Assembly (NCBI RefSeq): GCF_002896855.1 | Contig: NZ_CP021850.1 | Span: 4,241,665-4,305,664, forward strand | Direction: 5' to 3' | Length of the DNA: 64,000 nucleotides | From: Clostridium thermosuccinogenes | GTDB taxonomy: Bacteria; Bacillota; Clostridia; Acetivibrionales; DSM-5807 | Shown: positions 11,817-48,905 of the stretch, one piece after another | Position numbering within the stretch: the first letter of the stretch is position 1 | How the letters are laid out: each line of letters opens with the position of its first letter | Program-made: the position numbers and the translations under genes | The notes under the pieces: model-generated | What the model was told of the DNA's origin: nothing | The model's database searches: none | The model's input: only the letters and a program-made list of their open reading frames with translations

Positions 11817-14756
11817 TCACTCCTTCCAACTTTCAATTTTCTCAGCGGTGGCCATTTCGAACGGTTTGATTAAATTTCCCTGGGAATCCATATAACCAAA
11901 CTCTTTAAGTTTTTTGGCAATCTCCCGGTTTGAAGTTATTATAGCCTGGTCAATTGCAGTTCTGGGGGACATGCCGCTGAATACCACCTTGTTCCACGCA
12001 TTGGATAATTCCCTCTCCACTGCAAAATACGCCGGGTTTCTTGGAATCTCCTTGATGTGGGCGTACTGCTCCAGGATAACCTTCTTATCTTTTTCATCAA
12101 AAGCCGTCGATTGGGAAAAAGCTTTGAAGTTAGCCGTATTCCATATATATTCCGGTCCAAACCGCAGCTGCATGTCATTGGCATAGCTGACCTGGGTATC
12201 GGTGCTCATCCACCACTTAATGTACTCCCAGCCTTTCTCCGGCATTTTTGATGATTTCAGGATTATGGATGCCGTACTTATAACAGGCTGGTATCTTAAT
12301 ATTTTCCCTTCTGAGTTTTTTACACCGATCCCCGGTGCAATGCCCCATTGCTCTGTTATTTCCGGAGCCGCATTTTTCAAAAGGATATATGTATTGAAAT
12401 CCGACATGCCTATAGGAGTGACCCCATATCTGAAATTGCTGTAAAAGTTTGCAATGCTCTCCGGCAAGCTGTAGCGGGTATAAAGGTCCGTCATCAGCTT
12501 AAAAGCTTCTATGGTTCTCGGATCATCCAACTCCACTCTGGAACCGTCATCGGAATATATTTTGCCTTCAAACTGCTGGATAAACGGCACTGTTGCTCCA
12601 AAGTGCTTCATTGCACCGACATTGGCAATAAGAGTATTAAAATTCATTCCATAGCGGGATAATACCGGAAGTATCTTAAGCGTATCCTCCCACGTTTCCG
12701 GTACTTCCAGCTTGAGCTTTTCCAGTATGTCTTTCCTGTAATACAAAACATAAAAGTTTGCCGTTTCAGGTATGCCATAACAACCATCATCCACCACAAA
12801 AGGAACGAATGCCTCTGAAGGGAAATCCTTTATAAACTGTCCGAAATCTTCAAACTGTCTGAGGTCATATAAGGCCCCGCGCAGGGCAAAATCAAACGGC
12901 CGGTAGGAGGATGCCCCCAGAACTACATCCGGAGCGCTTCCGGCTGAAACTGCAAGCAAAAGCTTTTGCTCATCCTTCATGGCGGATATGTTTACTTGGA
13001 TGCCCGTCATCTTCGTAAATTCACTATCAGTTTTTTCCCTCAGCACCTCAATGTGAGGAATGGATCCGTTAACCCAGACATTAAGCTTATCCTTTTCTAT
13101 TTTCTGAACATTTTCATCCTTGGTAAGAAACGACAATATCAGCTTCCGGATTTCCTCAACAAAAGCTGATAAAAAGTTGACCGTTGGTGGTGGCGGTTCA
13201 TTATCCACTCCCGTTATGTAAAAGCAGTCAATTGCCATAGGCTGAATCAGGAGCTCCGGCAGTATATATGCAACCTGCTGCGATATGGAAGAACTCCCCT
13301 GGGAAAATTGATCCAGGTTGTTCACCAAATCGTCGGGATCTTCGGCGTATTTTTGCAGCCGTTTTACGGCTACCTTCAGGCTTGAAAGTATGGAGCTGTT
13401 CTCTTTTCCTACTATCCCGGAAAGCTTTTTATATTCGCTGCTGAGCACATAAGCACTTTCCAGCAGATCCTGCCTGATGTCCGGTATATACTCCTCTATG
13501 TTCCAGTCCCTGTTCTTGTCCACCTTGTTGCCGGTAATCTTTTTGATCTCCAGAGAAATATCCGAAATCATGCTGATGACCCGGATAAGGTTTTCGTAGG
13601 TTTCAAAATATGGTGATGCTGTAGACTCCAAGGTCAGGGTATGGCTTCCCCTGGTAAGGTAAAGAAAAACCTTTTCTCCGTTTACCTTCAAAGTTTCATT
13701 TCTAAAACTGTTTCTTGTGAAGGGAAATGAATATTCGTTGAATTCCTCAAAGGGTATTTTACCGTCAATATATATGCGTTTGAACACAGGAAAATCCTTT
13801 TTGTCCTTTTGCTCATATTTAAAGTGAATACTATATAAACCATCTTCTTTTACATCAAAGGTATAAGTTACCGACTCGCCCGGCTCCTGCCACACATTGG
13901 CATCCAGATGGTTTATTTTCTTTTTTCCCGGGTCATAAGGATACAAATTGTAATTATTGCTTTTTCCTCCCCTGATATAGGATTCGGATTTTTCGGTGTA
14001 AGCCTCGCCCTGAATCGTCTGCATGGCATCCTTTATGACGGCTTTGTCCTTGTGCATTTCTTTATATTCTAAATAGGTTGGCACTTTAAGAGCAGGCAAT
14101 ATGCTGATATTGCCGATCATCACTTCAACCTGATTGTTTTCAATTGTTATTGTGTTTTTACCGGCCTTAAGATTAAATACAAGCGGCGTAGACAAGCTGT
14201 ATATGCTGTTGTTCAAAACAGCCTGCTGCCACTTAAATACCCTTTCCGGCCTTGGATAGATGTCATTTCCGTACCTGTCCTGATCATATTCCTGGGTCTT
14301 ATCCTTCCAGACCGCAGGAAGTTTTATGTTTCTGCTTTCATAGAACTGAAACTCTCCGTTAACGGTTAAAGCTATGCTGAGATTCCGCATGGAAGCCTCA
14401 GGTATGAAATAATCCAGCATTATGTGATACCCTCCGGCCTGCTCAACATTAACATCGAAAGTAAGGATGGATTCCGGAGGCATCAGTATGACCTCATCCC
14501 CATAATTCATGCTTTCCTGCTCGGGTAGCAGCTTTAAGTTGCTATTCGATAAAATGATTTCCGAAGGTTTTACGGTTGTTCCTCCCGATTTTACCATATC
14601 AACGGTAACTTCCGATAAAACCTTGTAATAGTTGGGTTCGAGAATTTCAGCATGAGCCTTACGGCATAAAAAGGCCGAAGATAAAAGCAATGCCAATGAT
14701 AATAAAAGGCACAACGCTTTTTTTACCGCGTTTTTCACTGTTTTCATTCCCTTCAT
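11817..14756 (-). CDS. Modular solute-binding protein: two carbohydrate-binding-like domains plus SBP
   Basis: At 979 residues this is about twice the size of a usual sugar-binding protein. It starts with a signal peptide ([18 protein letters not shown]...AHA) but lacks a proper lipobox. Two beta-sandwich-like modules follow, about residues 80-215 and 245-405, with lines such as [20 protein letters not shown] and [20 protein letters not shown] that recall carbohydrate-binding modules. A helical stretch (about 405-540) leads to a type-1 extracellular solute-binding domain (about 565-955; [44 protein letters not shown]). It probably captures a glycan for permease pair A. The ATG at 14756 lacks a clear ribosome binding site; an in-frame ATG is at 14747. 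The domain borders are estimates. Confidence 0.82.
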
Positions 14757-20839: not shown

Positions 20840-21913
20840 ATGAAGTATACAAACAACTGGTCAAAATCAAAGGAACGCCTGCGTGCCCTTTGGGACAGGG
20901 AAGTACTGGACAGATGCTGCATCTGGGTAACCGCACCTAAAGACAACGCCTCATATAAATGTTATGAGCTGCCTGAAAAGCAGGAGGATAAAATCAAATA
21001 CTGGACCGATGGTGAATTGGTACTGGAACGGTATAAAAACAGCTTTGAGAACACATATTACGCCGGCGAAGCCTTTCCCATATTAATAAACGATTTGGGA
21101 GCCGCCGGGCATGCAGGCTATTTTAAGAATGCCCGGTTCAGATTTGAAAACACCGTCTGGTTTTTCCCCATCATCCATGACTGGGATGAGGATGAACTCA
21201 TTTTTGATGAAAACAGCTTTCTCTACCGGAAAACCATCGACCTCACCAAATACTATGTAAGCGAAGCTAAAGGGGATTTTATCGTTTCAATGCCGTACAA
21301 TTGCGGCAATGCTGATGCTTTGGCACATTTGAGAGGCAGTGAAAACCTCCTCATGGATATGCTGCTGGAACCGGAAAAGGTTAAGGCGGCACTGGAAAAG
21401 ATACAGGCAGCATGGCTCAGAACCAATGAGGAAGTTTACAGGATAGTGTGTGGCAACAACGACGGAGGTTGTTCGGTAGGCTGGCTCGGGACGTGGGCTC
21501 CCGGGAGGCATGGGCAATTGCAGTGCGATATGTCGGTCATGCTGTCTCCGGAAATGTTTGACGAATACATTATGGATGAGCTCCAAAACCAATCCTCATG
21601 GATGGATCACTGCCTCTATCACCTGGACGGCATCGAGCAGACAAGGCACCTGGATAAGCTGCTGTCCGTCGATGGAATACATATTATCCAGTGGACCAAT
21701 GTGGCAGGCCAGCCCCGTGCCACAGAATGTCTGGATATTCTCAGGAAAATACAAGCTGCCGGCAAAGGCCTCATCATCCACGTGGAGCCCCATGAAGTCA
21801 GGGTAATGCTGGAGAATCTCTCTTCCAAGGGATTATACCTATTAACCTGGGCAGAGACGCAAAGCGATGCCGATGACCTGGTGCGCATGGCGGAAAAAAT
21901 GACCCATGAATAG
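20840..21913 (+). CDS. Uroporphyrinogen-decarboxylase-like (URO-D superfamily) protein
   Basis: The 357-residue product belongs to the URO-D/MtaA superfamily of TIM-barrel proteins, which includes HemE and the methylcobamide methyltransferases. Recognisable stretches are MPYNCGNADALAHLRG, LLEPEKVKAALEKIQAAW, the HLDG segment near residue 260, and VDGIHIIQWTNVAGQPR. It lacks the N-terminal Arg-rich substrate motif of true HemE, so haem synthesis is unlikely. Similar proteins are sometimes labelled trimethylamine corrinoid protein 2-like, without proof. The ATG at 20840 follows GGAGG by 7 nt. It is divergent from the sugar regulator; its role there is unknown. Confidence 0.72.
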   Translation: MKYTNNWSKSKERLRALWDREVLDRCCIWVTAPKDNASYKCYELPEKQEDKIKYWTDGELVLERYKNSFENTYYAGEAFPILINDLGAAGHAGYFKNARFRFENTVWFFPIIHDWDEDELIFDENSFLYRKTIDLTKYYVSEAKGDFIVSMPYNCGNADALAHLRGSENLLMDMLLEPEKVKAALEKIQAAWLRTNEEVYRIVCGNNDGGCSVGWLGTWAPGRHGQLQCDMSVMLSPEMFDEYIMDELQNQSSWMDHCLYHLDGIEQTRHLDKLLSVDGIHIIQWTNVAGQPRATECLDILRKIQAAGKGLIIHVEPHEVRVMLENLSSKGLYLLTWAETQSDADDLVRMAEKMTHE

Positions 21914-22448: not shown

Positions 22449-24188
22449 TCAAATATCTGCCTCAATGGGAATAAACGCTTGCCGGGTAACATCAAAAAGC
22501 CCCTTATCGGTCACCTTGATTTCCGGTATCACCGGCAGGGACATAAAGCACAGCGTCATAATGGGTTCTACCGCTTTGCTTATCCCAAGCTGTTCATATG
22601 CATCCTTATGAATTTGGGACAGCTTTTCACTTACCCATTCTCCGGACCTGTCACTCATAATACCGCCTACCACCATCGGCATACAGTTTATAATCTCTCC
22701 GTTTTTTACCAGAACAATGCCTCCACCTTGCTTCACAAGGCTTTCCACCGCCAAGGCCATATCCTCATCCTTGGTTCCCACAGTTATGATGTTGTGAGAA
22801 TCGTGGGCAATCGATAATGCCACGGCTCCCGACCGGATTCCATAGCCCCTGATCAAAGCCAGACCAACATTTCCGGTGCCACGGTGGCGTTCCACAACCG
22901 CCGCTTTCACTATATCCTGTTCCGGCTGCCATATGAATTCTCCTTTTTCGTCCAGAGCAACTTCTGCCATTCCTTTTGCAGTGACAACGCCCCCGGGAAG
23001 AATATCGATAACGTTTACATGCCTGGAATTGAGCTTCAGCCTTAGCTTTTCCACAGAAAAGTCTTTGACATGAAAGCTTCCCTGCACGGCCGAGATATCG
23101 CAGCGGCGTATCTCCGGCAGATATTTCCCTTCTCTTGCCACTTCCTCTCCCTGTATGAACACCCTCTGAACATTGAAATCCTTTAAATTATCTAACAGCA
23201 CGATATCTGCGCGCAGTCCGGGAGCTATGGCTCCCCTGTCATGCAGCCCATAGCACTCAGCTGCATTCAGGCTCGCCATCTGAATGGCAGTAACCGGGGA
23301 AATCCCCTCTTCCACACATATCCGGAGGTGATTGTCCAGATGCCCTAACTTAAGAATGGTCTCCGGCTGTCTGTCATCGGAGCACAGCAGGCAGCGGCGG
23401 CTGTTGGCAGGGGTGACAGCCTTAAGCAGCGTGCGCAGGTTATGGCAGGCCGAACCTTCCCTCAAGAGGATATAAAGCCCTCGGGAAAGGCGGTCAAGCA
23501 TCTCTTCTTCCGTGGAGCATTCGTGATCCGTATGTATACCGCAAGCTACATACGCATTCAGTTCTTTTCCTGTAAGACCCGGGCTATGTCCATCGATCAG
23601 CTTTCCTCCATTGATGGCAATCAAAAGTTTGTTCATCACCTCATCGTCCGCTTCCACAACTCCGGGATAATTCATGAATTCGCCAAGCCCAAGGATTCTG
23701 GAATCCCTAAGCGGTTCTTTCATCTTTGCAGCATCGATGACAGCTCCGGCATTTTCAAAGGGTGTCGCCGGCACACAGGAGGGAAGCATGTACCGGATAT
23801 CAAGTTTTGTCCCCTTCGAAGCTTCAAGCATGTAATTCATGCCCTCCATGCCGCATACATTGACTATTTCATGGGGATCGGCGATAATGGTAGTCGTGCC
23901 ATGGGGAACCAGGAGCCTGCCGATTTCCTCCGGGGTGACATAAGAAGATTCAATATGGATATGGCTGTCGATAAACCCAGGAGCTGCATATTGACCCTGG
24001 GCATCGATTTCATGCACACCCTGGTAATCACCGATTCCCACGATGCAGCCATCCGAAATGGCGATGCTTTTTCCCTCAATAATGGTAGAATTATATACAT
24101 CAACTATCCTGCAGTTTTTTATCACCAGGTCTGCAGGCCTTCTTCCTGCTGCCGTATCAATTCTCTTTTTCAATGAATGCTTTTCCAT
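22449..24188 (-). CDS. ade: Adenine deaminase
   Basis: This cytosolic amidohydrolase converts adenine to hypoxanthine and ammonia in purine salvage. The 579-residue length is typical. The metal-binding motif GFIDSHIHIESS is at about residues 72-83, followed by PHGTTTIIADPHEIVNVCG. CSDDRQPETILKLGHLD and the C-terminal SIAHDSHNIITVG are signatures of the Ade family. I chose the ATG at 24188, preceded by AAAGGTGG; the in-frame GTG at 24197 lies in that site. It is the last gene of the riboswitch-controlled purine operon, after a strong intercistronic hairpin, so imported purines are fed straight into deamination. Confidence 0.95.
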   Translation of the reverse strand: MEKHSLKKRIDTAAGRRPADLVIKNCRIVDVYNSTIIEGKSIAISDGCIVGIGDYQGVHEIDAQGQYAAPGFIDSHIHIESSYVTPEEIGRLLVPHGTTTIIADPHEIVNVCGMEGMNYMLEASKGTKLDIRYMLPSCVPATPFENAGAVIDAAKMKEPLRDSRILGLGEFMNYPGVVEADDEVMNKLLIAINGGKLIDGHSPGLTGKELNAYVACGIHTDHECSTEEEMLDRLSRGLYILLREGSACHNLRTLLKAVTPANSRRCLLCSDDRQPETILKLGHLDNHLRICVEEGISPVTAIQMASLNAAECYGLHDRGAIAPGLRADIVLLDNLKDFNVQRVFIQGEEVAREGKYLPEIRRCDISAVQGSFHVKDFSVEKLRLKLNSRHVNVIDILPGGVVTAKGMAEVALDEKGEFIWQPEQDIVKAAVVERHRGTGNVGLALIRGYGIRSGAVALSIAHDSHNIITVGTKDEDMALAVESLVKQGGGIVLVKNGEIINCMPMVVGGIMSDRSGEWVSEKLSQIHKDAYEQLGISKAVEPIMTLCFMSLPVIPEIKVTDKGLFDVTRQAFIPIEADI

Positions 24189-24302
24189 ATATACCACCTT
24201 TGTTTTTACGTATCATCATCATTATTTTTCCGGTTTTTCGGTTCAAATCATGTGTAAGCCAAAAATATCCCAAGGTCTGTATCTTTTGTATCTTTAGAAA
24301 CA

Positions 24303-24435: not shown

Positions 24436-25572
24436 TTATCTCCAGTCACCAATTACGTTTTCTACCAGGAATTCCTGTGTATTTATCATTTCATCGCTCA
24501 TGGTTTCACCTGCGGCGACCAATACATTCCCTTTGTTGTCTTTCAGTTCTCCGCCATAAACTTTGATTTTGCCGTTTGCAATATCTTCTTTCACCTTTAG
24601 CACCTTTTCCTGCACATCCTTCGGTACAAGATCATCATTAAACTCTGTTATGGATGCACATTCCCCACCCTCATAGTAGTAATCGCTGCTTGTGGCAGTT
24701 CCTTCGGCTACAGATGTAATGATCTTTTCAAAGATCGGCTTGAAATTCCATACATAGGAGAACAGAACTGCTTTCGGCGCCAAAGCCTTCATATCCACAT
24801 TGTAGCCTATGCAGTAAGCGCCTTTGGCTTCACAGGTCTGGGGAATCGCAGGAGATGAAGCTTCCATACCCATGTATTTGATTCCCTGGTTGATCAGGGT
24901 TTGGGCACTTTGGGTTTCAAGGTCCACGTCATACCAGCTGTTTGCCCAGACTACCTGCACCTTTGCGTTGGGGTTTGCATATTTTGCTCCCAAAGCATAG
25001 CCATTGATGGCGGCACGAACGGAAGCTTCCGACATGCTGGCTGCAAAGCCCAGGAGGTCATTGTCGGACATCAAAGCACATGCATAACCGGCCAGAAACA
25101 TGCCTTCGTAATTTCGTATCTGATAGCCGATCAGATTCTCCGTCCTATCTCCATGTTGAGCTACAATGACATCAGGATTCTGGGCTGCCAGATCAGACAG
25201 GAACGTCGCATATCCGGAGCTTGCCCCGATGATCAGATTGGCACCTTCGCTGACTAACGCTTCGTAAGCATTGGCAACGGCCACTTGTTCCTCTGCCACG
25301 TTTTCAATCACGAGCAGATTCTCTTCCGGGATTCCCAACTCCTTCATAGCTGCCAGGATGCTCTGATGAGTCGCCTGGCACCAACCTCCGTCATTTACCA
25401 CCAGGGAAGTGATCTCACCGATTTTTATTTTCGAATAATCAATAGTTTTACCTCCCTGACCCGATGCGGCTTTGTCCGGCTCCGCAGATTTGCCGGAACA
25501 AGCGGAAAGAAACACAACTGCAAATACTGCTGCCAGCAATAGACTGATTAACTTTAATTTTTCCTTCTTCAT
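24436..25572 (-). CDS. BMP-family nucleoside-binding lipoprotein
   Basis: The 378-residue protein is a basic-membrane-protein (BMP/Med/PnrA-like) lipoprotein, the receptor of purine-nucleoside ABC importers. The signal peptide MKKEKLKLISLLLAAVFAVV ends in the lipobox LSAC. Family features include VVNDGGWCQATHQSILAAMK, GANLIIGASSGYATFLSDLA and YQIRNYEGMFLAGYACALMS. The ATG at 25572 has AAGGAGGAG 8 nt upstream; longer in-frame starts are not supported. It follows the two permeases and the ATPase of the same operon and lies just before ade. Confidence 0.93.
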   Translation of the reverse strand: MKKEKLKLISLLLAAVFAVVFLSACSGKSAEPDKAASGQGGKTIDYSKIKIGEITSLVVNDGGWCQATHQSILAAMKELGIPEENLLVIENVAEEQVAVANAYEALVSEGANLIIGASSGYATFLSDLAAQNPDVIVAQHGDRTENLIGYQIRNYEGMFLAGYACALMSDNDLLGFAASMSEASVRAAINGYALGAKYANPNAKVQVVWANSWYDVDLETQSAQTLINQGIKYMGMEASSPAIPQTCEAKGAYCIGYNVDMKALAPKAVLFSYVWNFKPIFEKIITSVAEGTATSSDYYYEGGECASITEFNDDLVPKDVQEKVLKVKEDIANGKIKVYGGELKDNKGNVLVAAGETMSDEMINTQEFLVENVIGDWR

Positions 25573-25702
25573 TATGTACTCCTCCTTCAAAATTGATACT
25601 ATTGGTACTTGTATTATTAACATTGATTTATCAATGCTTGTTCTGTTTAATGCTTAGCTTCCTTAACTCATGTTTACATAAAATTTCATATCTATCATCC
25701 TA

Positions 25703-26632
25703 TTACCGGGCTTCCCGGTCATATTTCTGACATAAGGCTGCCGGCTCTTCCGTATGCTTCCTACGAAAGCTTCCGGTTGATATAATAAGTGCCACCACCG
25801 TTGCTATATATGGAAGCATGCTATAAAACTGGGAAGGGATTCCCGGCAGATAAATCTGCATATTTATGCCGATGATGCTGATTGCGCCAAAAAGCAGTGC
25901 TCCCAGGGCAGCGCCGGCCGGATTCCATCCGGAAAAGGCCACCAGAGAAAAAGCAATCCAGCCTTTTCCCCCTGTCATTCCCTCATTCCAAAAGTTTGTG
26001 TAGGACAGGGAAATGCATGCTCCGCTGATGGCGGTCATCGCACACCCGAAAATCACATAGGCATATCTTAGGGCAAATACATTGATGCCTGCCGCATCCA
26101 GAGCGGCCGGGTTTTCTCCCAAAGCCCGGAGGATCATACCCGGTCTTGTCCTGTAAATATAGAAAATGCTGAGGGGAACTATCAGATACATGAGGTAAAC
26201 CAACAAATCCTGCTTAAAGAAGATATCCCCCACCACCGGAATGTCTGAAAGAAACGGTATGTTTATTTTCTCAAATTTCACGGCAGAAGCTATGCCTGTA
26301 ACATTTTTCCCTATAAATCCGCTCAAGCCGCTGCCAAAAATCAAAAACGCCATGCCGCACACCGTTTGATCCGCCCCCAGGGTAACGGTAAGAAAGGCAA
26401 ATACAAGTCCCAGCACTGCACCCACAAGGATTACCGCAAGAAAAGCCAGCACCAGATTATTAGTATTGTAAACCGTCAGGAAACCGGATACCGCTCCCAT
26501 AAGCATTATGCCTTCAATGCCAAGATTCATGATTCCCGCACGCTGTGAAAAAATCTCACCGATTGCAGCATATAAAATTGATACGGCATAAACAATAGCT
26601 GCTGCGCAAATGGATGTTATGAATGCAGTCAT
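25703..26632 (-). CDS. Nucleoside ABC importer permease (NupQ/YufQ-type)
   Basis: The 309-residue membrane protein is a branched-chain-amino-acid-type (BPD_transp_2) permease of the nucleoside subfamily, with about eight to nine hydrophobic helices. The hallmark is FSQRAGIMNLGIEGIMLMGA near the N-terminus, and GENPAALDAAGINVFALRYA is the cytoplasmic loop. It overlaps the upstream permease gene by the 4-bp ATGA junction, indicating coupled translation of the two channel halves. Confidence 0.93.
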   Translation of the reverse strand: MTAFITSICAAAIVYAVSILYAAIGEIFSQRAGIMNLGIEGIMLMGAVSGFLTVYNTNNLVLAFLAVILVGAVLGLVFAFLTVTLGADQTVCGMAFLIFGSGLSGFIGKNVTGIASAVKFEKINIPFLSDIPVVGDIFFKQDLLVYLMYLIVPLSIFYIYRTRPGMILRALGENPAALDAAGINVFALRYAYVIFGCAMTAISGACISLSYTNFWNEGMTGGKGWIAFSLVAFSGWNPAGAALGALLFGAISIIGINMQIYLPGIPSQFYSMLPYIATVVALIISTGSFRRKHTEEPAALCQKYDREAR

Positions 26633-27729
26633 TGTGCAACCCCTTCCGTCTTGTTTTGACTGATCATAGTATTTCTATTGAACGATACTTTATAATGATT
26701 AAAAAACTCTCCTGCAATCACAGATATCATAATGCTTCCCTGCAGCATGGTCGCAATCTGCGAAGGAACTCCCATGAGCTGCACTGCAGCACAGCTGTTC
26801 TCCAATCCGCCCAAAAGGATGGAAACGATAATCACAGCGATGGGGTTGAAGCGGCTCAAATATGCTATGACAATCCCGGTATATCCACTGCCGCCCGGGA
26901 GCTGTGCCTGCACCCGGTGCACTATGCCGGTGATCTGGACAAAACCTGCCAGGCCGGCAATGGCGCCGCTTATTGTCAAAACTATAAGAATGTATTTTTT
27001 TACGTTTATGCCTGCATATTCCGCTGACCTTCTGCTGTTTCTGATCACTTCGATCTGGTATCCGGCCGTCGTGTATTTTAAAAATATGTATAGAAGTATT
27101 GCGATCCCAAGCGCCACCAGTATGCCCGTACTGATTCCGCTATTCCCGATGTTGGGGAGATACATCTCCTTCGGTATGGCTTCGGAGATGGCCGTTGTCT
27201 GTTTTTTTGCCATCCAGGGTCCATAACACAAGTAATCCAGGAACAATAAGGCTATGTAATTCTGCATTAAGGTGACAATGGTCTCATTCACATTCCAAAA
27301 TGCCTTTAACGCTGCTGCAATCACAGCCCACAGTCCACCGCCTACCGCACACAGCAGAAACATCACCATTATCCGGAGCGGCATGGGCAGTTCCGGCCCG
27401 AAAAGGGCAAATGCACCTCCCAAGATGGCTCCCATAGCATATTGTCCTTCCGCACCGATATTGTTCAGATTCATTTTAAAGGCAATGGAAACACTGAGTC
27501 CGCAAAGCATCAGCGGAAGTCCCGCCTTAATGCTTCCATTGATTCCCCTTAAATTTAAGAAAGAATAAGATAGCATTTTAGAATACACGGCAATGGGATT
27601 GAAACCAACCGCTATGATTAAAACCGAACTGAAAACCAGGCCGATTAAAACAAAAACAATAGGGTTGAGTATCTTGTTCTTAAGAGGCACCGTATGTTTT
27701 TTCTCTATCTGAATCGTACCAATGCTCAT
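26629..27729 (-). CDS. Nucleoside ABC importer permease (NupP/YufP-type)
   Basis: The 366-residue membrane protein is the other channel subunit. It has the N-terminal extension typical of NupP and SIAFKMNLNNIGAEGQYAMG, the counterpart of the permease hallmark above. IRNSRRSAEYAGINVKKYIL is the ATPase-facing loop. The ATG at 27729 follows AAGGAG, which overlaps the stop of the ATPase gene. It forms an importer with the ATPase, the second permease and the BMP lipoprotein. Confidence 0.93.
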   Translation of the reverse strand: MSIGTIQIEKKHTVPLKNKILNPIVFVLIGLVFSSVLIIAVGFNPIAVYSKMLSYSFLNLRGINGSIKAGLPLMLCGLSVSIAFKMNLNNIGAEGQYAMGAILGGAFALFGPELPMPLRIMVMFLLCAVGGGLWAVIAAALKAFWNVNETIVTLMQNYIALLFLDYLCYGPWMAKKQTTAISEAIPKEMYLPNIGNSGISTGILVALGIAILLYIFLKYTTAGYQIEVIRNSRRSAEYAGINVKKYILIVLTISGAIAGLAGFVQITGIVHRVQAQLPGGSGYTGIVIAYLSRFNPIAVIIVSILLGGLENSCAAVQLMGVPSQIATMLQGSIMISVIAGEFFNHYKVSFNRNTMISQNKTEGVAQ

Positions 27730-27741
27730 ATATATCTCTCC

Positions 27742-29256
27742 TTAGGCAGGCTCTCCGGACATCAACCGTCCGATTTCCTCATAATCCGTTTCAGATGTAT
27801 TGCGTATCCCCATCAGCTTTCCATCACATAGAACAGCTACCCTGTCCGACATTTCAAAAATTTCATCCAATTCTTCCGATATGAGCAGCACGCATGCTCC
27901 TCTGTTACGCTGTTCCATCAGTATATTGTTGATTGCTTCCGCCGCTCCTATGTCCAGTCCCCGTACCGGATAAGCTGCAATAACAAGGGCAGGCTCGCAG
28001 TGGATCTCCCGGGCTACCAGAAGCTTCTGCTGGTTTCCACCGGACATCATGCTCACCGGCAAATCCATGCCGCCATTTTTTATATCATGAGTTTCGATAA
28101 ACCTTTCCGTAACAGCCTTTATAGGCTTGCTTCTTAAAAAACCAAACCTGCTGAACTCCGGTTCTCTGAATTTTTTTAATATGGCATTCTGTTTCATGTT
28201 CATTCCCGGAATCAGTCCCATTTTTAATCTATCCTCAGGGATAAAGGAAATCCCCATCGATATCCTCTGCTTTGCATTCATTTTAGTAATATCCCTGCGG
28301 TTCATCATGATTTTGCCGGATGCAACCTTACGAAGTCCCGCCAGGGCTTCCGCCAGCTCCCTTTGGCCGTTTCCTGCCACACCGGCAATGGCAAATATCT
28401 CGCCTGAACGGAGGCTGAAGGAGACATCCTTCAAAGCATCAAGGCCTTTGTCATTTCTGACATGCAGATGTTCCACTTCCAGCAGCACATGGGCATTTTC
28501 CTTCGTTGTCTTCCTCACTGTTTTACTCAAAGTCCTTGAGCCCACCACTGCTTTCGTAAGGCGTTCGACGGTCGCATCCCCTGCCGGCATTTCATCTTCC
28601 ACTCTCCCGCCTTTTAAAACCGTAATCCGGTCTGAATGTTCCATAACTTCATTCATCTTATGGGAAATGAAGATCACCGTTTTACCGTCATCTGCCATTT
28701 TCCTCAAGGTTTTAAACATCTCTCTGGATTCCTGCGGCGTCAGCACGGCGGAGGGTTCATCCAAAATCATGATCTCACAGTCCCGGCATAAGAGCTTCAT
28801 TATTTCCACCCGCTGCTGCTCCCCCACTGAAAGCTGCCATACCTTTGCTCCGGGGTCAACAGCCAGACCGAATTTATCGGAAAATCTGCGGATGGTCTCT
28901 TCCATTTTTGCCCTGTTTAGTATGAAGTCGCCCCTTCCCATGCTCAGGAAAATGTTTTCCGCGACACTCAGGGTAGGGATTAGCTCAAAATGCTGATGTA
29001 CCATCCCGATACCCAGCTCGGCAGCATCCTTCGGACTTTTTATTGATACCTTCTTCCCTTTATAGAAGATTTCTCCCGAATTGGGCTTGTAAATGCCCAG
29101 CAATATGTTCATAAGGGTGCTTTTACCGGCTCCGTTTTCTCCTAAAAGCGCATGGATTTCCCCTTTATACAGTCGCAGATTAACATTATCATTGGCCAGA
29201 GTTTTTCCAAACCTCTTGGTGATGCCTTTCATTTCCAATAAAATGGTTTTCTCCAT
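27742..29256 (-). CDS. Nucleoside ABC importer ATPase (NupO/YufO-type, two NBDs)
   Basis: This 504-residue cytoplasmic ATPase carries two fused nucleotide-binding domains. The first has Walker A GENGAGKSTLMN, signature LSVGEQQRVEI and Walker B IMILDEPSAVLTP. The second has a degenerate Walker A (GVAGNGQRELAEAL) and MSGGNQQKLLVAREI, as is normal in this family; its Walker B region reads AAYPVRGLDIG, where AAQPTRGLDVG is usual. The ATG at 29256 follows GGAGG by 7 nt, so the longer open frame upstream is not coding. It is the first gene after the purine riboswitch and terminator. Confidence 0.93.
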   Translation of the reverse strand: MEKTILLEMKGITKRFGKTLANDNVNLRLYKGEIHALLGENGAGKSTLMNILLGIYKPNSGEIFYKGKKVSIKSPKDAAELGIGMVHQHFELIPTLSVAENIFLSMGRGDFILNRAKMEETIRRFSDKFGLAVDPGAKVWQLSVGEQQRVEIMKLLCRDCEIMILDEPSAVLTPQESREMFKTLRKMADDGKTVIFISHKMNEVMEHSDRITVLKGGRVEDEMPAGDATVERLTKAVVGSRTLSKTVRKTTKENAHVLLEVEHLHVRNDKGLDALKDVSFSLRSGEIFAIAGVAGNGQRELAEALAGLRKVASGKIMMNRRDITKMNAKQRISMGISFIPEDRLKMGLIPGMNMKQNAILKKFREPEFSRFGFLRSKPIKAVTERFIETHDIKNGGMDLPVSMMSGGNQQKLLVAREIHCEPALVIAAYPVRGLDIGAAEAINNILMEQRNRGACVLLISEELDEIFEMSDRVAVLCDGKLMGIRNTSETDYEEIGRLMSGEPA

Positions 29257-29387: not shown

Positions 29388-29423
29388 ATAAAATGGATGG
29401 GAACTAGTGTTCTCCATCCATTT
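29388..29423 (-). terminator. Riboswitch-controlled intrinsic terminator
   Basis: A 10-bp stem AAATGGATGG / CCATCCATTT with an inner GAAC/GTTC extension is followed on the minus strand by TATTTT. It lies between the purine aptamer and the ATPase start and is the obvious expression platform. Confidence 0.85.
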
Positions 29424-29519
29424 GCAAATATGATCATTGTTTGAAAATGGCAAACCCAGCTTGTCCTATGACAAAGGCCAGGTTTCCTTACCAATACAAA
29501 CACAAAATTGCAATAGAAA

Positions 29520-29595
29520 GGGACACTATAGCGTAGGTAATTTACGGTTACCACGTAGAGACATCCACACCATATTAGTGGATTTATATAGCCCG
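29520..29595 (-). promoter_or_regulatory. Purine riboswitch aptamer
   Basis: The minus strand shows the purine aptamer layout: P1 CTATA/TATAG, J1/2 TATAAATC, P2 ATCCAC/GTGGAT with loop TAATATGG, J2/3 GTCTCTAC, P3 closing the exact loop CCGTAAA, and a C just before the P1 3' strand. That C suggests guanine/hypoxanthine recognition. The J3/1 segment TACGC differs from the usual GAC, and J1/2 has an extra A, so ligand choice is uncertain. It precedes the nucleoside importer and ade genes, which fits purine control by transcription attenuation. Confidence 0.85.
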
Positions 29596-29731
29596 TTACT
29601 ATTTGCTAATATTTAATTTTAAAATAGTTTATCATGACTGTCGCATAATGTCAATCAATGAAACTTCGCTTCCTTCAGCCTTGCAGCGCTGGAATTTCCA
29701 GCCTTTCCATGCTGCATAAATATCTGGCCTA

Positions 29732-31108
29732 TCAGAGTTTCAAGCCCATATCCTTTAACTCGTCCTTCACCTCGAGGTACATCCTCTCCCATTCGGGTAA
29801 AGGCGTGACAGTGGCCATATCATATGCCTGATCAAACCTCTTGCCCACATATTTTTCAGGCTCCGAGAAGACATGCTCATACTTTTCCAAAAGCTTTAAA
29901 ACAATCTTATTTGCTTCTTCCCTCGTCATGCCCTGATTTGTAACTGCTTTACCCACTTCGCCCATAAGTCTGACCTCAAGGCCGGTACCGTTGGGCACTT
30001 TGCCGTCTGCCGAACCAACACCCTCAAGATGCCCTCCGCTGACGGCAACCACTATGGCATTGGCCGCCACTTCATATAACAACTCCTTCGTCATAGCTCC
30101 GCTCTTAGGCCAAATATCACATACGATAATAGCAGGCGCATTTTTAGCAAAGGCTTGGCATAAAACCGATTGCAACCACAAGCAGCCCCTTGCCGTGGTG
30201 GCGACATCCCGTATATGTATCGGATGGCACAGGTGGTAGTCTGCCAGGCACACGAGGTTTGCCGCCATAATGGATGCGATCATCACCAGGGTTGCCCCGG
30301 GAGCGTCACCTCCCAAACCTCCCACCATGGCACATGCCAGGGAGGCATTTCTCATTCCGTATTCAAGAGAATAAGCTGCTCTGGCCATATTGCCATTGTC
30401 TATTATAAGCTCATTGAACAAGGCCACCAGATGTGCGTCACAAGGACGAAGCCCATTGCGATTTGCAGCTGCGATGTCTCCCAACTCAGTAACCGCGCTT
30501 TCGGCCGCCAGCAATCCCATACCCGGCCTTCCCACTTCCCTGAGGGCTTTGTGGATATACTTAAGCTCGCGGCAGGTAGCCAGCACCTCTGTGGGATGGT
30601 TCCCTTTTACCTTGAATCCATCCACATCAATCAGAGAGCCACAGGTCAAAAGATCGACTATGGGCTCCTTCGCAGAGCTGAGGACATTTTCATAGAATAT
30701 CTCTTCCGGTGTAGGGCAGCCCGGGTTGCCAGCCCAGATGAGCGGAGCTCTTTTGTCCTCAATGTTTCGGGCATAAAGAGTAACCGCGTCCTTTCCCTCT
30801 CCCATTACCAGCTCTTTCTTCATCTGCCTTAAGCCTTCCTCAATTTCATCTTCGGTAAGGTTTATGACGCGGCCGGTGCTTATGTTATATACTCCTGTTT
30901 TGCATATAAGTCTTTTGCTTGCTTCAAAAATTAGATCCAGCAACTTGTCATCATTAGGGATCAGAACGTTTTTGTCCCAGGAAAAATCATATTCCTCCAC
31001 CAGCTCTCTGACCCCGTCTATGATATAATCCAAATCCCAGTCCTCTTTGCTAACCTTAGGACCTGTTTCGCTTCTTTCGCATATCTCCAGGTATTTTTTC
31101 GTATCCAT
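29732..31108 (-). CDS. MtmB-like methylamine methyltransferase homologue without pyrrolysine
   Basis: The 458-residue product has the same length and overall pattern as monomethylamine methyltransferase MtmB, the TIM-barrel enzyme that transfers a methyl group to a corrinoid protein. Shared stretches include SKEDWDLDYI near the start, TGVYNISTGRVINLTEDEI, GRPGMGL, HPIHIRDV and GLEVRLMGEVGKAV, plus the closing YDMATVTPLPEW. At the pyrrolysine site, GMG-V-Pyl-G in MtmB, this protein reads GMG-L-Leu200-A, encoded by CTG at 30509-30511, so no amber codon is needed. No corrinoid protein, RamA or pyl gene is in the window. The ATG at 31108 follows GGGAGG. The substrate is unknown; a non-pyrrolysine methyltransferase acting on another amine is an inference. 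Confidence 0.82.
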   Translation of the reverse strand: MDTKKYLEICERSETGPKVSKEDWDLDYIIDGVRELVEEYDFSWDKNVLIPNDDKLLDLIFEASKRLICKTGVYNISTGRVINLTEDEIEEGLRQMKKELVMGEGKDAVTLYARNIEDKRAPLIWAGNPGCPTPEEIFYENVLSSAKEPIVDLLTCGSLIDVDGFKVKGNHPTEVLATCRELKYIHKALREVGRPGMGLLAAESAVTELGDIAAANRNGLRPCDAHLVALFNELIIDNGNMARAAYSLEYGMRNASLACAMVGGLGGDAPGATLVMIASIMAANLVCLADYHLCHPIHIRDVATTARGCLWLQSVLCQAFAKNAPAIIVCDIWPKSGAMTKELLYEVAANAIVVAVSGGHLEGVGSADGKVPNGTGLEVRLMGEVGKAVTNQGMTREEANKIVLKLLEKYEHVFSEPEKYVGKRFDQAYDMATVTPLPEWERMYLEVKDELKDMGLKL

Positions 31109-31237: not shown

Positions 31238-31346
31238 TATTTGCAGATATTGAATGTATTATACCACATTTATAAAGCATTTCAAGAGAAACATAAGTAA
31301 TTTATATGCTTATAAAACAAGGCCATCAAAACCCAGAAGCTTTTGG

Positions 31347-33761: not shown

Positions 33762-35042
33762 TTATGCTGCTTTTACTTCCGGTCTTTTTATATCGCTTAT
33801 CATCTTTTGTGGGTCGTAAGCTATGTCTTTCGTCAGTATCGCATAAAATATCCGTATTAACTTATTACTCAAAGCAACCAGGGATTGCATTTTCTTCAAG
33901 GGCCTTTCCTTCCTAGTCGTATAGTATTGGTGTAAGGCTCGGAATTCCTCATTCTTGGACAGCAAGGGCATAATACCAAATGTCAAATAGTATCGCAGCC
34001 GCTTCCTTCCACGTTTGCATATGGTTGTCTGACCCTTATGCTTACCGGAACTGTTCTCTTTGAGACTTAGCCCAGACAGCTTTTGGATCTGCTTTGGATG
34101 ACTAAATCTAAAGATATCGCCTACCTCCGCTAGAAAGCCTGCAGCTACCACGAGTCCAACACCTTTGATTTCAAGCATCTTCTCAAACCCGGGAATTTGC
34201 ATTGCCAGCTCCTCAATTAAAGCCATTGTTCTTTCATGCTGTCGCATTTTGCTCTCATAGTCCTCAAGCAACATTGAGAGTTCATTTTCTGCAGATATAA
34301 GCCCTTCGGATGTTCCAATAGAAGTCTTAGCGGATTCAAGAAGCCTCACAGCTCTTTTTATTCCTACAGCCCTTATCTTGTGTTTCTTCCAGATGGCTAT
34401 GATACCTTCAATGCCTTTTTCAACAACCTTTTTGGGTGTCGGGCATTCGTTCAGTATCAACAATGCAGCCTTCCCCTCCCAATCCTCAAATACCTTGGTG
34501 AATTCAGGGTAATGGATACATATCCACCGGCTGATACGGTTCCTGACAGCTGAAAGTTCCTTTACTAGCCGCCACCGGCTGTCCATGGCCGACCGTAGCT
34601 CCTTGTAAATACCTTCCGGAATATACGGTTCAATATATCTCCCATCCTTAACCAGCATTGCTATGGTTTTTGGGTCTTTACGGTCGTTCTTGGTGGGATT
34701 GTTGTCATCCAATTCCTTGCTTTTCTTCACATGATGCGGGTTTACTAGTACAATGCGCATCCCGCTTTTCATAGTATTCTCAGCAAGGTTGAACCAATAG
34801 TGTCCTGTCGGCTCCATCCCAAGGATCACCTCGGTAAAGCCTTTGGCTTCCGCTATCTTCCCTGCCCATTCTTTGAGCTTCGCAAACCCTTCAGTATTGT
34901 TGCTGAAAATCAACAGCTTCCCATACTCTACGCCTCTGAAATTGAAAGCTCTGGCGTAGTGTGATTCACTACCAACGTCAATTCCGACAATCAGCGTCGT
35001 TTCTTTGATTTGCAAAATCTTTTCATTCTGAGTATACTTCAT
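33762..35042 (-). CDS. IS110-family transposase (DEDD recombinase)
   Basis: The 426-residue transposase has the N-terminal RuvC-like DEDD domain (LIVGIDVGSESHYARAF, GMEPTGHYWFNLAE, NDRKDPKTIAMLVKDGRY). The C-terminal Transposase_20 domain follows, with MLEIKGVGLVVAAGFLAEVG, LSGLSLKENSSGKHKGQ holding the catalytic serine region, and KRGRKRLRYYL. The length and both domains are complete, so it may be active. The ATG at 35042 follows GGAGGCATCCAAT. Part of that ribosome binding site (AGGCATC) can pair with GATGCCT about 60 nt upstream, which would damp expression from outside promoters. Confidence 0.93.
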   Translation of the reverse strand: MKYTQNEKILQIKETTLIVGIDVGSESHYARAFNFRGVEYGKLLIFSNNTEGFAKLKEWAGKIAEAKGFTEVILGMEPTGHYWFNLAENTMKSGMRIVLVNPHHVKKSKELDDNNPTKNDRKDPKTIAMLVKDGRYIEPYIPEGIYKELRSAMDSRWRLVKELSAVRNRISRWICIHYPEFTKVFEDWEGKAALLILNECPTPKKVVEKGIEGIIAIWKKHKIRAVGIKRAVRLLESAKTSIGTSEGLISAENELSMLLEDYESKMRQHERTMALIEELAMQIPGFEKMLEIKGVGLVVAAGFLAEVGDIFRFSHPKQIQKLSGLSLKENSSGKHKGQTTICKRGRKRLRYYLTFGIMPLLSKNEEFRALHQYYTTRKERPLKKMQSLVALSNKLIRIFYAILTKDIAYDPQKMISDIKRPEVKAA

Positions 35043-37984: not shown

Positions 37985-38236
37985 AACGATAAATGTGATG
38001 ATAAGGACGAGTAGATTTTACCCAGCTTATAAGAGATGAAGTGTCAGCGGCTGAGAGCACTTCTAAGCATGGAAAATTGAAAACCACCTTTGAACAGTGC
38101 ACTGAATTTAAAGTAAGTGTAACCGGTGATTCCGTTATAATCACAATGAGTGACAGCTAAAATTGCTTTATAGCTGTAATTTGGGTGGAACCGTGTGAGT
38201 TAACTCTCATCCCATTAGAGGATGAGAGTTTTATTT
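37985..38236 (+). promoter_or_regulatory. T-box riboswitch, threonine-type
   Basis: The T-box sequence TTTGGGTGGAACCGTG (about 38180-38195) is followed by a terminator, AACTCTCATCC paired with GGATGAGAGTT and then TTTTATTTTT (38202-38240). Stem I includes GATGATAAGGACGAGTAGA. The likely specifier is ACC at 38083-38085 in AAACCACCTTTGAAC, a threonine codon, which agrees with the downstream thrS. Uncharged tRNA-Thr should favour read-through. Confidence 0.9.
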
Positions 38237-38396: not shown

Positions 38397-40163
38397 ATGA
38401 ATAAAATTGAGCATGAAAAATTATACAATATAAGGCATACTATGGCCCATGTGATGGCCTATGCCGTCAAGCAAATATTTGGTGAAGTCAAGTTTGGTAT
38501 TGGACCTGTAATAGAAGATGGTTTTTATTATGATTTTGAACTGCCAAGATCCCTTGTTCCGGAAGACCTGGGTATCATAGAAGAAAAAATGAGGGATATT
38601 ATTAATAATGGGTATCAAGTCTTAAATGAATCTATCAGTTTTGACGAAGCTCGTCAAATGTTCAATGATCAACCATATAAACTCGAATTAATAAATGAAT
38701 TGGCGCAAAATCCTGAGAACTCCGGTGTAAGCATATACAGAATCGGAGAGTTCGTTGATTTGTGCAAGGGACCACATGTCGCTTCTCTTAAAGAACTGAA
38801 TTTGAAAACATTCAAGTTGATGCGGGTTTCAGGGGCATATTGGAAAGGTGATGCAGAGAATCCGATGCTCCAGAGGATATATGGAACAGCCTGGGAAAGA
38901 CCAGAGGAACTAAAAGCCTACATCGACAAAATTGAAGAAGCCAGCAAACGAGATCACAGAACCCTCGGTACGCAGCTTGACCTTTTCAGTTCTTCTCAAG
39001 ATATTGGACAAGGGCTTGTTCTATGGCATCCAAAAGGTGCAATGATCCGTTACCTTCTGGAAAAGTTCAGTCAGACAGCACATATTCTTAATGGATATGA
39101 TTGGGTATATACGCCCCATATAGGCCGAGCAGAGCTTTGGAAAACATCGGGACACCTTCAGTTTTATAAGGAATCCATGTACAATGCCATAGAGATAGAT
39201 AATGAAGAGTATTACCTAAAGCCAATGAGCTGCCCTTTTCACATAATGATATACAATAGCTCGTTGAGGTCATATAAGGATTTGCCCATCCGGTATGCAG
39301 AATACGCAACAGTATACAGATATGAGCTTTCGGGGACACTACAGGGGCTTACCAGAGTACGCGGCTTTACTCAGGATGATGCCCATATAATATGTACACC
39401 AGAGCAAGTTCACAGTGAAGTTGTCAAAGCATTAAAGTTTTCTCTATATATTTTAAAATCTTTTGGCCTTAATAACTTTAAAGCCTATGTTGCAACAAAG
39501 CCGAAAAAGAAGTCAATTGGAGATGATAAGGATTGGAATGCCGCAATTGAGTCCTTGAAAAATGCAGTTGTTGCAGCAGGCTTGGAATATGAAATTGACG
39601 AAGGTGGCGGAGCCTTCTACGGGCCAAAGATTGACCTGAAGCTGCGGGATGCCCTGGGAAGGGAATGGCAATGCAGCACAATACAATTTGATTTCAATCT
39701 CCCTGAAAGATTCAACATGAAATATATTGGAGCAGATGGAGCAAAGCATACTCCAATGATGGTTCACAGGGCATTATTCGGTAGTTTGGAAAGATTCTTT
39801 GCAATGCTCATAGAACACTACAATGGTGATTTTCCGTTATGGTATGCTCCGGTGCAGATTGGAATTGTTCCTATCAGCAGCAACCATTACGAGTACTGTA
39901 AGGAACTATCAAAGAAACTAAAAACAATTGGGTTAAGAGTTAACCTTGATCTGAGCGATGATAAGATGAGGGCAAAAGTTCGCAGGATGGAACTGGAAAA
40001 AATCCCAATAGTTCTTATCATAGGAGATCAGGAGGTTGAAAAGGAAGGTTTATCGGTCCGTTCCAGAAAAGAAGGTAACTTAGGATTTATGACGCTAAAT
40101 GACTTTTTGGAGAAAATCAAACCCGAATTAGATATGGGAGTTCCAAAATATATAATGGATTAG
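38397..40163 (+). CDS. thrS: Threonyl-tRNA synthetase lacking the N-terminal TGS domain
   Basis: This enzyme charges tRNA-Thr. The 588 residues begin directly with the editing domain (RHTMAHVMAYAV and LCKGPHV supply the HxxxH and CxxxH sites), then the class-II catalytic core with Zn ligands in MSCPFHIM, DDAHIICT and MMVHRALFGSLERF, and an anticodon-binding domain at about 490-588. The roughly 60-residue TGS domain of standard ThrRS is absent. The ATG at 38397 follows AGGTAGGGATGATAT, and the upstream T-box with an ACC specifier supports the start and identity. It may be a second copy, induced on threonine starvation or by an inhibitor; that is inference. Confidence 0.95.
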   Translation: MNKIEHEKLYNIRHTMAHVMAYAVKQIFGEVKFGIGPVIEDGFYYDFELPRSLVPEDLGIIEEKMRDIINNGYQVLNESISFDEARQMFNDQPYKLELINELAQNPENSGVSIYRIGEFVDLCKGPHVASLKELNLKTFKLMRVSGAYWKGDAENPMLQRIYGTAWERPEELKAYIDKIEEASKRDHRTLGTQLDLFSSSQDIGQGLVLWHPKGAMIRYLLEKFSQTAHILNGYDWVYTPHIGRAELWKTSGHLQFYKESMYNAIEIDNEEYYLKPMSCPFHIMIYNSSLRSYKDLPIRYAEYATVYRYELSGTLQGLTRVRGFTQDDAHIICTPEQVHSEVVKALKFSLYILKSFGLNNFKAYVATKPKKKSIGDDKDWNAAIESLKNAVVAAGLEYEIDEGGGAFYGPKIDLKLRDALGREWQCSTIQFDFNLPERFNMKYIGADGAKHTPMMVHRALFGSLERFFAMLIEHYNGDFPLWYAPVQIGIVPISSNHYEYCKELSKKLKTIGLRVNLDLSDDKMRAKVRRMELEKIPIVLIIGDQEVEKEGLSVRSRKEGNLGFMTLNDFLEKIKPELDMGVPKYIMD

Positions 40164-46902: not shown

Positions 46903-48531
46903 CTAAAGTGTGGGCTCATCGGGGTCCACAACACATTCCAGCAGGTACGCCCTGTCATCTTCGAACATCCTTTTAAGAGCCATCGTCACTTCTTTATTGC
47001 AGGTTATGCGCTCTGCCTTAATTCCATAGGCATCCACGAGCTTCACAAAGTCCGGATTTTCATCCAGAAACACCTGGGAATAACGGCCGCAGTATTTATT
47101 CTTCTGCAGTTCCCGAACCATGCCAAGGCGGGAGTTGTTAAAAATGATTATTTTTACGCCCAGCTTATTCTGTTTTATGGTTCCCAGCTCCTGCAAGGAC
47201 ATCTGAAAGCTGCCGTCACCGCCGATCACAACAACCTTTGATTCGGGCTTTCCGATTTTGGCTCCCACCGCAGCAGGCAACCCATATCCCATGGTTCCCA
47301 TACCTCCTGAAGATATGAAAGTCCTCGGCTTTTTTACCTTCAGGCAGTTAGCCGCCCATATCTGGTTCTGGCCTACTTCGGTGGTTACGATATCATCACA
47401 GCCCATCATATCCGACAGGAGGGAGATCACATACTGAGGCTTTACAAAGCTTTGTCCCATGCTTTCATCATAGCGGGAAAAATGCTTTTCCTTTATCTGC
47501 GTTATAGTTTCCACCCATTGGTCCACTTCGCCTCTTTCAATAATCCCCAGCAGTTGCCTGAGAATAGTTTTGACATCTCCCACCACGGGGATGGAAACCC
47601 CTACATTTTTTCCTATTTCTGCAGGATCAATATCTATGTGGACAATCTTTGCCTTCTCGGCTATTTTATTCACCTTAGCCATTGCCCGGTCGCCGACCCT
47701 CGCCCCCATGATGATCACAAGATCCGCATGATGAACGGCATAATTGGCAGCATAAACTCCGTGGGACCCAAGCATTCCGACATTAAGCCGGTGATCCGAA
47801 GGGATTGAGCCTATCCCCATAAGCGTCGTAGCAACTGGAATATCGCACTTTTCCACCAATTCCACCAGTTCCTCCGACGCATTGCTGCTGATTATCCCTC
47901 CACCGGCGCAGATAACCGGACATTTTGCTGTTCTTACAGCTTCCGCAATCCTTTTTATCTGCATCATGTGTCCTTCATATGTAGGCTTGTAGCCTCTAAT
48001 ATTTACGGATTCGGGATATTCAAAATCCAGTTCCGCGTTCTGCACATCCACGGGTATATCAATAAGCACAGGCCCGGGCCTGCCGGTAGAAGCTATATGA
48101 AAAGCCTCCTTGATCACTTTGGGTAGCTCGCAGGCATCCTTTACAAGGTAGCTGTGCTTGCAAAACGGTGCCGTAGCCCCGGTTATGTCGGCCTCCTGAA
48201 AAACATCCCTGCCTATGGCGTCTGTCGACACCTGACCGGTGATAGCTACAATCGGTATGGAATCCATATATGCCGTGGCAATGCCGGTTATAAGATTAGT
48301 GGCTCCAGGGCCTGATGTAGCTACGCACACGCCGGTTTTGCCGGTCACCCGCGCGTATCCGCTGGCAGCATGGGCTGCACCTTGCTCATGCCTCGTAAGT
48401 ACATGACGAATTTTTGAGTCCAGGAGTGCATCATAAAAAGGACATATAGCTGCTCCCGGGTATCCGAATATGACATCCACCTTTTCCATTTCCAATGCTT
48501 TTATAATCGCCTGAGCACCTGTCAGCTTCAT
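46903..48531 (-). CDS. ilvB: Acetolactate synthase large (catalytic) subunit
   Basis: This thiamine-diphosphate enzyme makes acetolactate and acetohydroxybutyrate. The protein of about 542 residues shows GYPGAAICPFYDALLD with the catalytic Glu-containing region after it (RHEQGAAHAASGYARVTG), the central FAD-type domain, and the ThDP motif VVIGGDGSFQMSLQELGTIK to IIFNNSRLGMV. I place the start at the ATG at 48531 (MKLTGAQ), as in relatives, with AAGGG 9-10 nt before it; an in-frame ATG at 48540 is possible. It is the first gene after the leucine T-box. Confidence 0.94.
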   Translation of the reverse strand: MKLTGAQAIIKALEMEKVDVIFGYPGAAICPFYDALLDSKIRHVLTRHEQGAAHAASGYARVTGKTGVCVATSGPGATNLITGIATAYMDSIPIVAITGQVSTDAIGRDVFQEADITGATAPFCKHSYLVKDACELPKVIKEAFHIASTGRPGPVLIDIPVDVQNAELDFEYPESVNIRGYKPTYEGHMMQIKRIAEAVRTAKCPVICAGGGIISSNASEELVELVEKCDIPVATTLMGIGSIPSDHRLNVGMLGSHGVYAANYAVHHADLVIIMGARVGDRAMAKVNKIAEKAKIVHIDIDPAEIGKNVGVSIPVVGDVKTILRQLLGIIERGEVDQWVETITQIKEKHFSRYDESMGQSFVKPQYVISLLSDMMGCDDIVTTEVGQNQIWAANCLKVKKPRTFISSGGMGTMGYGLPAAVGAKIGKPESKVVVIGGDGSFQMSLQELGTIKQNKLGVKIIIFNNSRLGMVRELQKNKYCGRYSQVFLDENPDFVKLVDAYGIKAERITCNKEVTMALKRMFEDDRAYLLECVVDPDEPTL

Positions 48532-48578
48532 TTCCACCATCCCTTACACCATTGACTGTCAATCTTGCCCGTCTGTAT

Positions 48579-48905
48579 GAAAAACCCCTTCGCTTCCTGC
48601 TAAAGCTAATCAGCAGGGACGAAGGGGAATAATATCCTACGTGGTACCACCCTAATTTCAGCGCACCATCGCCGGTACGCCCTCAAAAAGTACAGCCAAG
48701 ACATACCATATTATGCCTGTAGTCTTGAACAATACTTAAACCTTAACGCAGTTAACGTCGCTGCCTACTTAACCTAAAAGGGGGAGTAATGTTCAGCAGC
48801 GAAGCTCCGGAACGAGTTATACATACAGCCAGCGTGCCGGTTCGCACCACCCACCGGCTCTCTTGAACACCTAAGCCGCATCTTTATTCCTTCATGGCCT
48901 TTACA
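48579..48905 (-). promoter_or_regulatory. T-box riboswitch, leucine-type, before ilvB
   Basis: The minus strand carries AATTAGGGTGGTACCACG (48640-48658) and a terminator CCCCTTCGT.../...GCGAAGGGG with TTTTT (48579-48627). Stem I has AGAGAGCCGGTGGGTGGTGC. The likely specifier is CTC (48814-48816), a leucine codon, followed after 5 nt by GGAGC, the same spacing as in the thrS T-box. Uncharged tRNA-Leu should switch on the ilv-leu-cimA operon. Confidence 0.92.

Follow-up and report, generated by a model that had tools for sequence, protein, structure and literature searches.

A homologue of MtmB with leucine in place of pyrrolysine (Pyl) is encoded within the 64,000-nucleotide stretch of the Clostridium thermosuccinogenes genome analyzed here (the window). 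The gene lies in a purine-related neighborhood with a purine riboswitch, the pocket of its product is remodeled, and the genome carries genes for a corrinoid protein, an activase and a methyltetrahydrofolate:corrinoid methyltransferase (MeTr). Judged from sequence, the balance tips slightly towards this protein being a corrinoid-dependent enzyme that N-demethylates a methylated purine base or nucleoside, with an adenine derivative as the likeliest substrate. The preliminary description of the gene had expected a new substrate, possibly an unknown amine or betaine; a new substrate still appears likely, while the purine neighborhood and the riboswitch make a methylated purine or nucleoside a better candidate than an unspecified amine or betaine.

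Loss of pyrrolysine in this family has been described before. In Methanococcoides methylutens Q3c, MtqB removes methyl groups from tetramethylammonium and choline, an activity termed the first function for a non-Pyl MtmB; of the non-Pyl members among the 1,061 Pyl and non-Pyl MtmBs placed in a tree, most have no known function (Kashyap et al. 2026, PMC13044021). In strain DCMF, no protein was induced more strongly by DCM than a non-Pyl MtmB (PMC9768040). The remark in the preliminary description that no described counterpart of MtmB was known is outdated, and since non-Pyl MtmBs are already recognized, novelty cannot rest on the lost pyrrolysine. Compared by description, the window protein resembles MtqB in being a non-pyrrolysine member of the MtmB superfamily, but MtqB has its cognate corrinoid protein at a neighboring locus tag and acts on quaternary amines. 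The non-Pyl members of the MttB superfamily (MtgB, MtpB, MtcB and MtyB) also combine pyrrolysine loss and a new substrate with corrinoid chemistry, but belong to PF06253/COG5598 and not to PF05369.

An MtmB clade with leucine at the pyrrolysine position

The mtmB-like gene occupies positions 29732-31108 on the minus strand and encodes 458 amino acids. Position and length agree with the preliminary description, which gave no strand; the plus strand of this segment is stop-rich. The protein matches PF05369 with 342.6 bits (E 5e-102, curated cut-off 25) over profile positions 5-450 of 450, i.e. over its full length. Its start is the ATG at 31108 with a GGAGG ribosome-binding site immediately 5', the mechanical ORF being longer and beginning at 31180. 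A promoter-like site (TTGAAA-16-TATAAT, with TG ahead of the second hexamer) is located upstream at 31258-31285 on the minus strand as a consensus match only, such matches being no commoner than in shuffled sequences. The profile search found this to be the sole PF05369 gene in the 4.73 Mb host genome; this and all other statements on host genome content are based on family searches.

The closest solved structures are those of M. barkeri MtmB (1L2Q/1NTH and 1TV2, E ~2e-65, full length), with which the window protein shares its length of 458 amino acids, the GRPGMG motif and several core residues. Leu200, encoded by CTG at 30509-30511 (minus strand), aligns to Pyl202 of M. barkeri MtmB in the pairwise as well as the multiple alignment and to the in-frame TAG of five bacterial Pyl-MtmBs, so the leucine previously read at the pyrrolysine position is borne out. 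It is invariant across all members of the type I clade described below and therefore represents neither a sequencing error nor a chance change. AlphaFold2 models from shallow alignments had a mean pLDDT of 38.7 for the MtmB homologue and 35.2 for the permease described in the next section, too low for either to be used.

Relatives gathered from genome collections comprise at least 16 type I loci, and none were found in plasmids or viral contigs. The preliminary description had proposed a PF05369 tree with and without pyrrolysine; in our tree of 26 PF05369 sequences, which leaves out MtqB, the window protein and 15 relatives (51-75% identical to it) form the type I clade with a support of 99/97, separate from the clade of six Pyl sequences with a support of 100/100. 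A further group contains type II (L056 and the first copy of L021) and type III (L057 and the second copy of L021). By these sequence criteria, type I is a distinct, well-supported non-Pyl MtmB clade that is new here.

Closer examination of the alignment revealed that Pyl202, Glu229, Glu259 and Gln333 are invariant in six of six Pyl-MtmBs, the latter three being the residues around Pyl in MtmB. Every type I member examined, including the window protein, differs from M. barkeri MtmB in carrying Leu200, Leu227, Leu257 and Asp331 at these positions, which are occupied by Thr, Met, Gly and Ile in type II and by Ala, Leu, Glu and Thr in type III. Glu203, His226, His292, His298 and R380 are common to type I and Pyl-MtmB, and C156, C259, C294, H295, C330, D331 and H360 are type-I-specific and invariant. 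Judged by these shared and invariant residues, the pocket has not decayed but is conserved in a remodeled form. The invariant clade-specific residues would also suit an enzyme acting on a different methyl group of a purine nucleoside, such as the thioether of 5'-methylthioadenosine, by means of a metal bound at the type I Cys/His positions, and adenine-salvage genes are compatible with this substrate too. The metal site, however, is a supposition from Cys/His conservation, and the thioether corrinoid methyltransferases so far known to us are all of the UroD or MetH types, which makes this reading distinctly unlikely.

Purine genes around mtmB

The genes next downstream of mtmB in the window are, like it, encoded on the minus strand. 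They comprise a BMP-type ABC transporter of the purine-nucleoside kind, consisting of an ATPase (27742-29256, ABC_tran PF00005, probable start ATG at 29256 with the mechanical ORF beginning at 29340), permease 2 (26629-27729, PF02653), permease 1 (25703-26632, PF02653) and a BMP/PnrA-like substrate-binding lipoprotein (24436-25623, PF02608, E 1.5e-40), as well as an adenine deaminase (22449-24197, TIGR01178 with 637 bits, cut-off 472.5). A vitamin B6 transporter was rejected, as the NCBIfam B6 models scored well under cut-off. Orthologues of the transporter components occur in G041, a genome of the host's order, with identities of 65% (ATPase), 71% (permease 1), 52% (permease 2) and 50% (BMP), and the deaminase is 64% identical to the one adjoining mtmB in L004.

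Between mtmB and the transporter/deaminase genes lies a purine riboswitch aptamer (29509-29611, minus strand; RF00167 with 66.1 bits, gathering 37, E 9.9e-11). Its probable expression platform is a terminator-like hairpin at 29391-29423 (minus strand; fold -18.5 kcal/mol, z -3.6) with T-rich sequence after it. The aptamer carries C at the position of C74, the ligand-specificity position, and is therefore of the guanine/hypoxanthine class; an adenine-sensing riboswitch was ruled out by the same C in both this aptamer and that of L054 (see below). Since mtmB has its own promoter-like site (31285), the window riboswitch probably governs the transporter and deaminase genes and not mtmB.

Several other features of the window were recorded. 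A 357-amino-acid protein encoded after the adenine deaminase (20840-21913, plus strand) resembles UroD-type methyltransferases by eye and belongs to no Pfam or NCBIfam family. T-box leaders are present at 37989-38217 (plus strand), upstream of a threonyl-tRNA synthetase-like gene (38397-40163), and at 48612-48904 (minus strand), upstream of an acetolactate-synthase-like gene (46903-48540). An IS110-family transposase (Pfam) is encoded at 33762-35042 and a transposase-like ORF, judged by eye only, at 53431-54771, both on the minus strand.

The idea of a purine connection arose from the window, L004 and G041, and 397 genomes representing a sample of the nearest relative's family were examined afterwards. 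PF05369 genes were present in 14 of them, 13 non-Pyl and one Pyl. Among the 16 type I loci counted (the window, L003, L004, L044 to L055 and L094), 13 had a purine context within 6 kb, defined as a BMP transporter, one particular permease family or adenine deaminase. BMP transporter orthologues were located beside mtmB in seven loci (window, L044, L046, L050, L052, L054 and L055), the permease family in five (L003, L048, L049, L051 and L053) and adenine deaminase in three (window, L004 and L049). No purine gene was found near mtmB in L045, L047 and L094, two of which are on contigs of ~10 kb. Assuming three BMP operons per 3 Mb genome, the chance of seven out of 15 loci lying beside a BMP operon is ~4e-9, a rough figure valid to an order of magnitude only, as shared ancestry leaves the loci not fully independent.

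The genes of L052 and L054 are separated by gaps of only 3 to 10 bases, which points to true operons. In L054, mtmB is the first gene, followed by the transporter, and a purine riboswitch (RF00167, 55.9 bits, gathering 37) is located immediately 5' of it. A gene for adenine phosphoribosyltransferase (Apt; TIGR01090, above cut-off) is the first gene of the L044 operon and lies just upstream in L055. Genes encoding UbiD-family decarboxylases were observed beside Apt and the BMP-mtmB operon in the same two loci (L044 15770-19678, two in tandem, and L055 781-4695).

The permease family (~520 amino acids) is encoded directly downstream of type I mtmB each time and seems to substitute for the BMP transporter, the two never co-occurring at the 16 type I loci. 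Its members include L003 11399-12982, L002 11407-12960, L049 10525-12078, L051 1485-3050 and L053 7480-9132. Profile searches of Pfam, NCBIfam and PDB gave no match. Motifs looked similar by eye to those of AzgA/NCS2 purine permeases, an assignment rejected after hhalign against E. coli AdeQ/AdeP returned a probability of 0.1%.

Purine genes also accompany the other non-Pyl types. G041 encodes two non-Pyl MtmBs on one 53 kb contig, each adjoining its own corrinoid protein, together with the orthologue of the window's BMP transporter and xanthine dehydrogenase subunits. Selenium-dependent xanthine dehydrogenase, SsnA, YgfK, YgeY, YgeW and carbamate kinase scored over cut-off on this contig, and 8-oxoguanine-deaminase-like and guanine-deaminase-like amidohydrolases scored just under the curated cut-offs. 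The contig (C4 1-52717, comprising L022, L021 and L023) further encodes RACo proteins and three UroD-type methyltransferases, and its corrinoid proteins number at least four. We regard this region as a candidate island for the anaerobic breakdown of methylpurines or methylxanthines. The reductive uric acid degradation cluster consists of ygfK-ssnA-ygeY-ygeW-ygeX, with corrinoid proteins unmentioned in the text of its description (PMC12507026); the G041 island joins genes of this pathway to two non-Pyl MtmBs, the corrinoid proteins and the transporter orthologue, whereas the window locus is limited to the transporter and adenine deaminase.

In G723, type II and type III mtmB are found at separate loci. 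At the type II locus, a cobalamin riboswitch precedes the genes, which encode a corrinoid protein, xanthine dehydrogenase subunits and 8-oxoguanine deaminase alongside MtmB; type III is accompanied by a corrinoid protein, guanine deaminase and a BMP protein. L056 contains two cobalamin riboswitches on the minus strand (11476-11664 and 14167-14347), the first of them preceding the genes for a corrinoid protein, type II MtmB, xanthine dehydrogenase and 8-oxoguanine deaminase. The Pyl-MtmB control loci (L024 to L027 and L058) have mtmC, a RamA-like activase and pyl-like neighbors, and no purine genes were found there.

The deaminases could be taken to indicate a Pyl-less methylamine enzyme, the substrate being methylamine freed from N6-methyladenine by the neighboring deaminase. 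Adenine deaminase does adjoin mtmB in three loci, some bacterial adenine/adenosine deaminases free methylamine from N6-methylated purines (PMC13296781), and MtqB keeps slight methylamine activity without Pyl (PMC13044021). However, adenine deaminase is near only three of the 16 type I genes, type I has lost Pyl together with each of the three polar residues that partner it, and N6-methyladenine is no substrate for E. coli AdeC (PMC13296781). As types II and III, moreover, are found with xanthine dehydrogenase and with deaminases for guanine and 8-oxoguanine, we consider this explanation unlikely.

Corrinoid proteins and methyl-acceptor genes

A genome devoid of corrinoid proteins would, according to the preliminary description, have counted against a methyltransferase; a corrinoid protein of the cognate type and a reductive activase were both found. 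The former is the one PF02607 protein of the host (PF02607 and PF02310, 212 amino acids, encoded at about G000:C1 3763623-3764261), which is nearest to the MtgC models and scores under their cut-offs; a RACo activase of 610 amino acids adjoins it, and the pair is located ~500 kb from mtmB. No type I locus contains a corrinoid protein, MtmC or RamA beside mtmB, and this lack of adjacent mtmC and ramA, as well as of pyl genes, distinguishes these loci from those of MtmB. Of 14 type I genomes, 13 encode a free-standing corrinoid protein that shares at least 50% identity with that of the host, compared to two of 20 members of the same family lacking PF05369 (p about 1e-6); none was seen in G432, a 1.8 Mb MAG with a type I MtmB. 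This genome-level co-occurrence suggests the corrinoid partner of type I MtmB and may also reflect genome size or shared ancestry. Corrinoid proteins are sometimes clustered with UroD-type genes, which may have other donors, and their pairing with mtmB is therefore inferred. The gene for the host MeTr (NF005719, 348 bits, cut-off 259) is clustered with those for FolD and Fhs and with a cyclodeaminase-like gene. CRISPR repeats and cas1/cas4-like genes, identified by eye, were observed near this cluster (L093 5009-5237 and 5649-7159). In two relatives (L104 and L105) the corrinoid protein adjoins a pterin-binding methyltransferase similar to the host MeTr.

The proximity of the host corrinoid protein to glycine-betaine MtgC models, below cut-offs as it is, would fit an MtqB-like methyltransferase for quaternary amines such as choline, tetramethylammonium or betaine, with the purine genes as unrelated neighbors; quaternary-amine activity is also that of MtqB, the sole characterized non-Pyl MtmB. 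Against this, the purine association recurs with varied transporter and salvage arrangements and a purine riboswitch, and no choline/betaine transporter or catabolic gene was recognized next to type I mtmB, so that we regard such an activity as quite improbable.

With the catalytic Pyl and its polar neighbors gone and the corrinoid protein not adjacent, the product might not be an enzyme at all, serving instead as a binding or regulatory protein or representing a passenger gene. The clade-wide retention of H226, H292, H298, E203 and R380, which are common with Pyl-MtmB, the co-occurrence of the corrinoid protein in the genomes and the activity of MtqB despite its loss of Pyl render this very unlikely. 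As a passenger, mtmB could accompany a transporter serving ordinary nucleosides.

Proposed route and implications for anaerobic purine metabolism

If the window protein is a methylpurine demethylase, candidate substrates would be 1-, 3-, 7- or N6-methyladenine or the corresponding adenosines originating from RNA or DNA breakdown. They would be imported by the BMP ABC transporter or, in relatives, by the permease family, and the MtmB-like barrel would pass the methyl group to the cob(I)alamin of the free corrinoid protein. From there it would be transferred to tetrahydrofolate via MeTr and enter the FolD-FchA-Fhs sequence, for which the genes are present and the coupling is presumed, with RACo, whose gene is present too, re-reducing inactive cobalt. 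The freed purine could be converted to hypoxanthine by adenine deaminase or, in relatives, to AMP by Apt, enzymes that were identified and through which such a flux is conceivable. The identified riboswitch aptamer would sense purine excess, its ligand being presumed from its class.

Pyl is thought to activate methylamine in MtmB. An N-methylpurine with a positive charge should donate its methyl group well, and Pyl may be unneeded for it; being chemically near the quaternary amines of MtqB, it would fit a Pyl-free site by analogy. The adenine-type reading is suggested by three loci with adenine deaminase and two with Apt. Extended to several non-Pyl MtmB clades, the proposal would make them all corrinoid demethylases, type I of methyladenine-type and types II and III of methylguanine- or methylxanthine-type compounds, to which we assign about an even chance.

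Known microbial N-demethylation of methylated purines uses oxygen, as in the Ndm enzymes acting on caffeine and the AlkB-type enzymes acting on N-methylated bases. No corrinoid demethylation of purines or methylxanthines was found in the open-access literature, the scope of our search, with most subscription papers lying outside it. If the proposal is true, a corrinoid route would explain how anaerobes strip methyl groups from methylated purines, and this would be a second function among the large set of non-Pyl MtmBs. It would allow anaerobes to use both the methyl groups and the rings of modified nucleobases or plant methylxanthines without O2, supplying methyl-THF as well as, in G041, the pathway of reductive uric acid breakdown, and would tie one-carbon metabolism to modified-RNA breakdown and to gut purine and caffeine metabolism.
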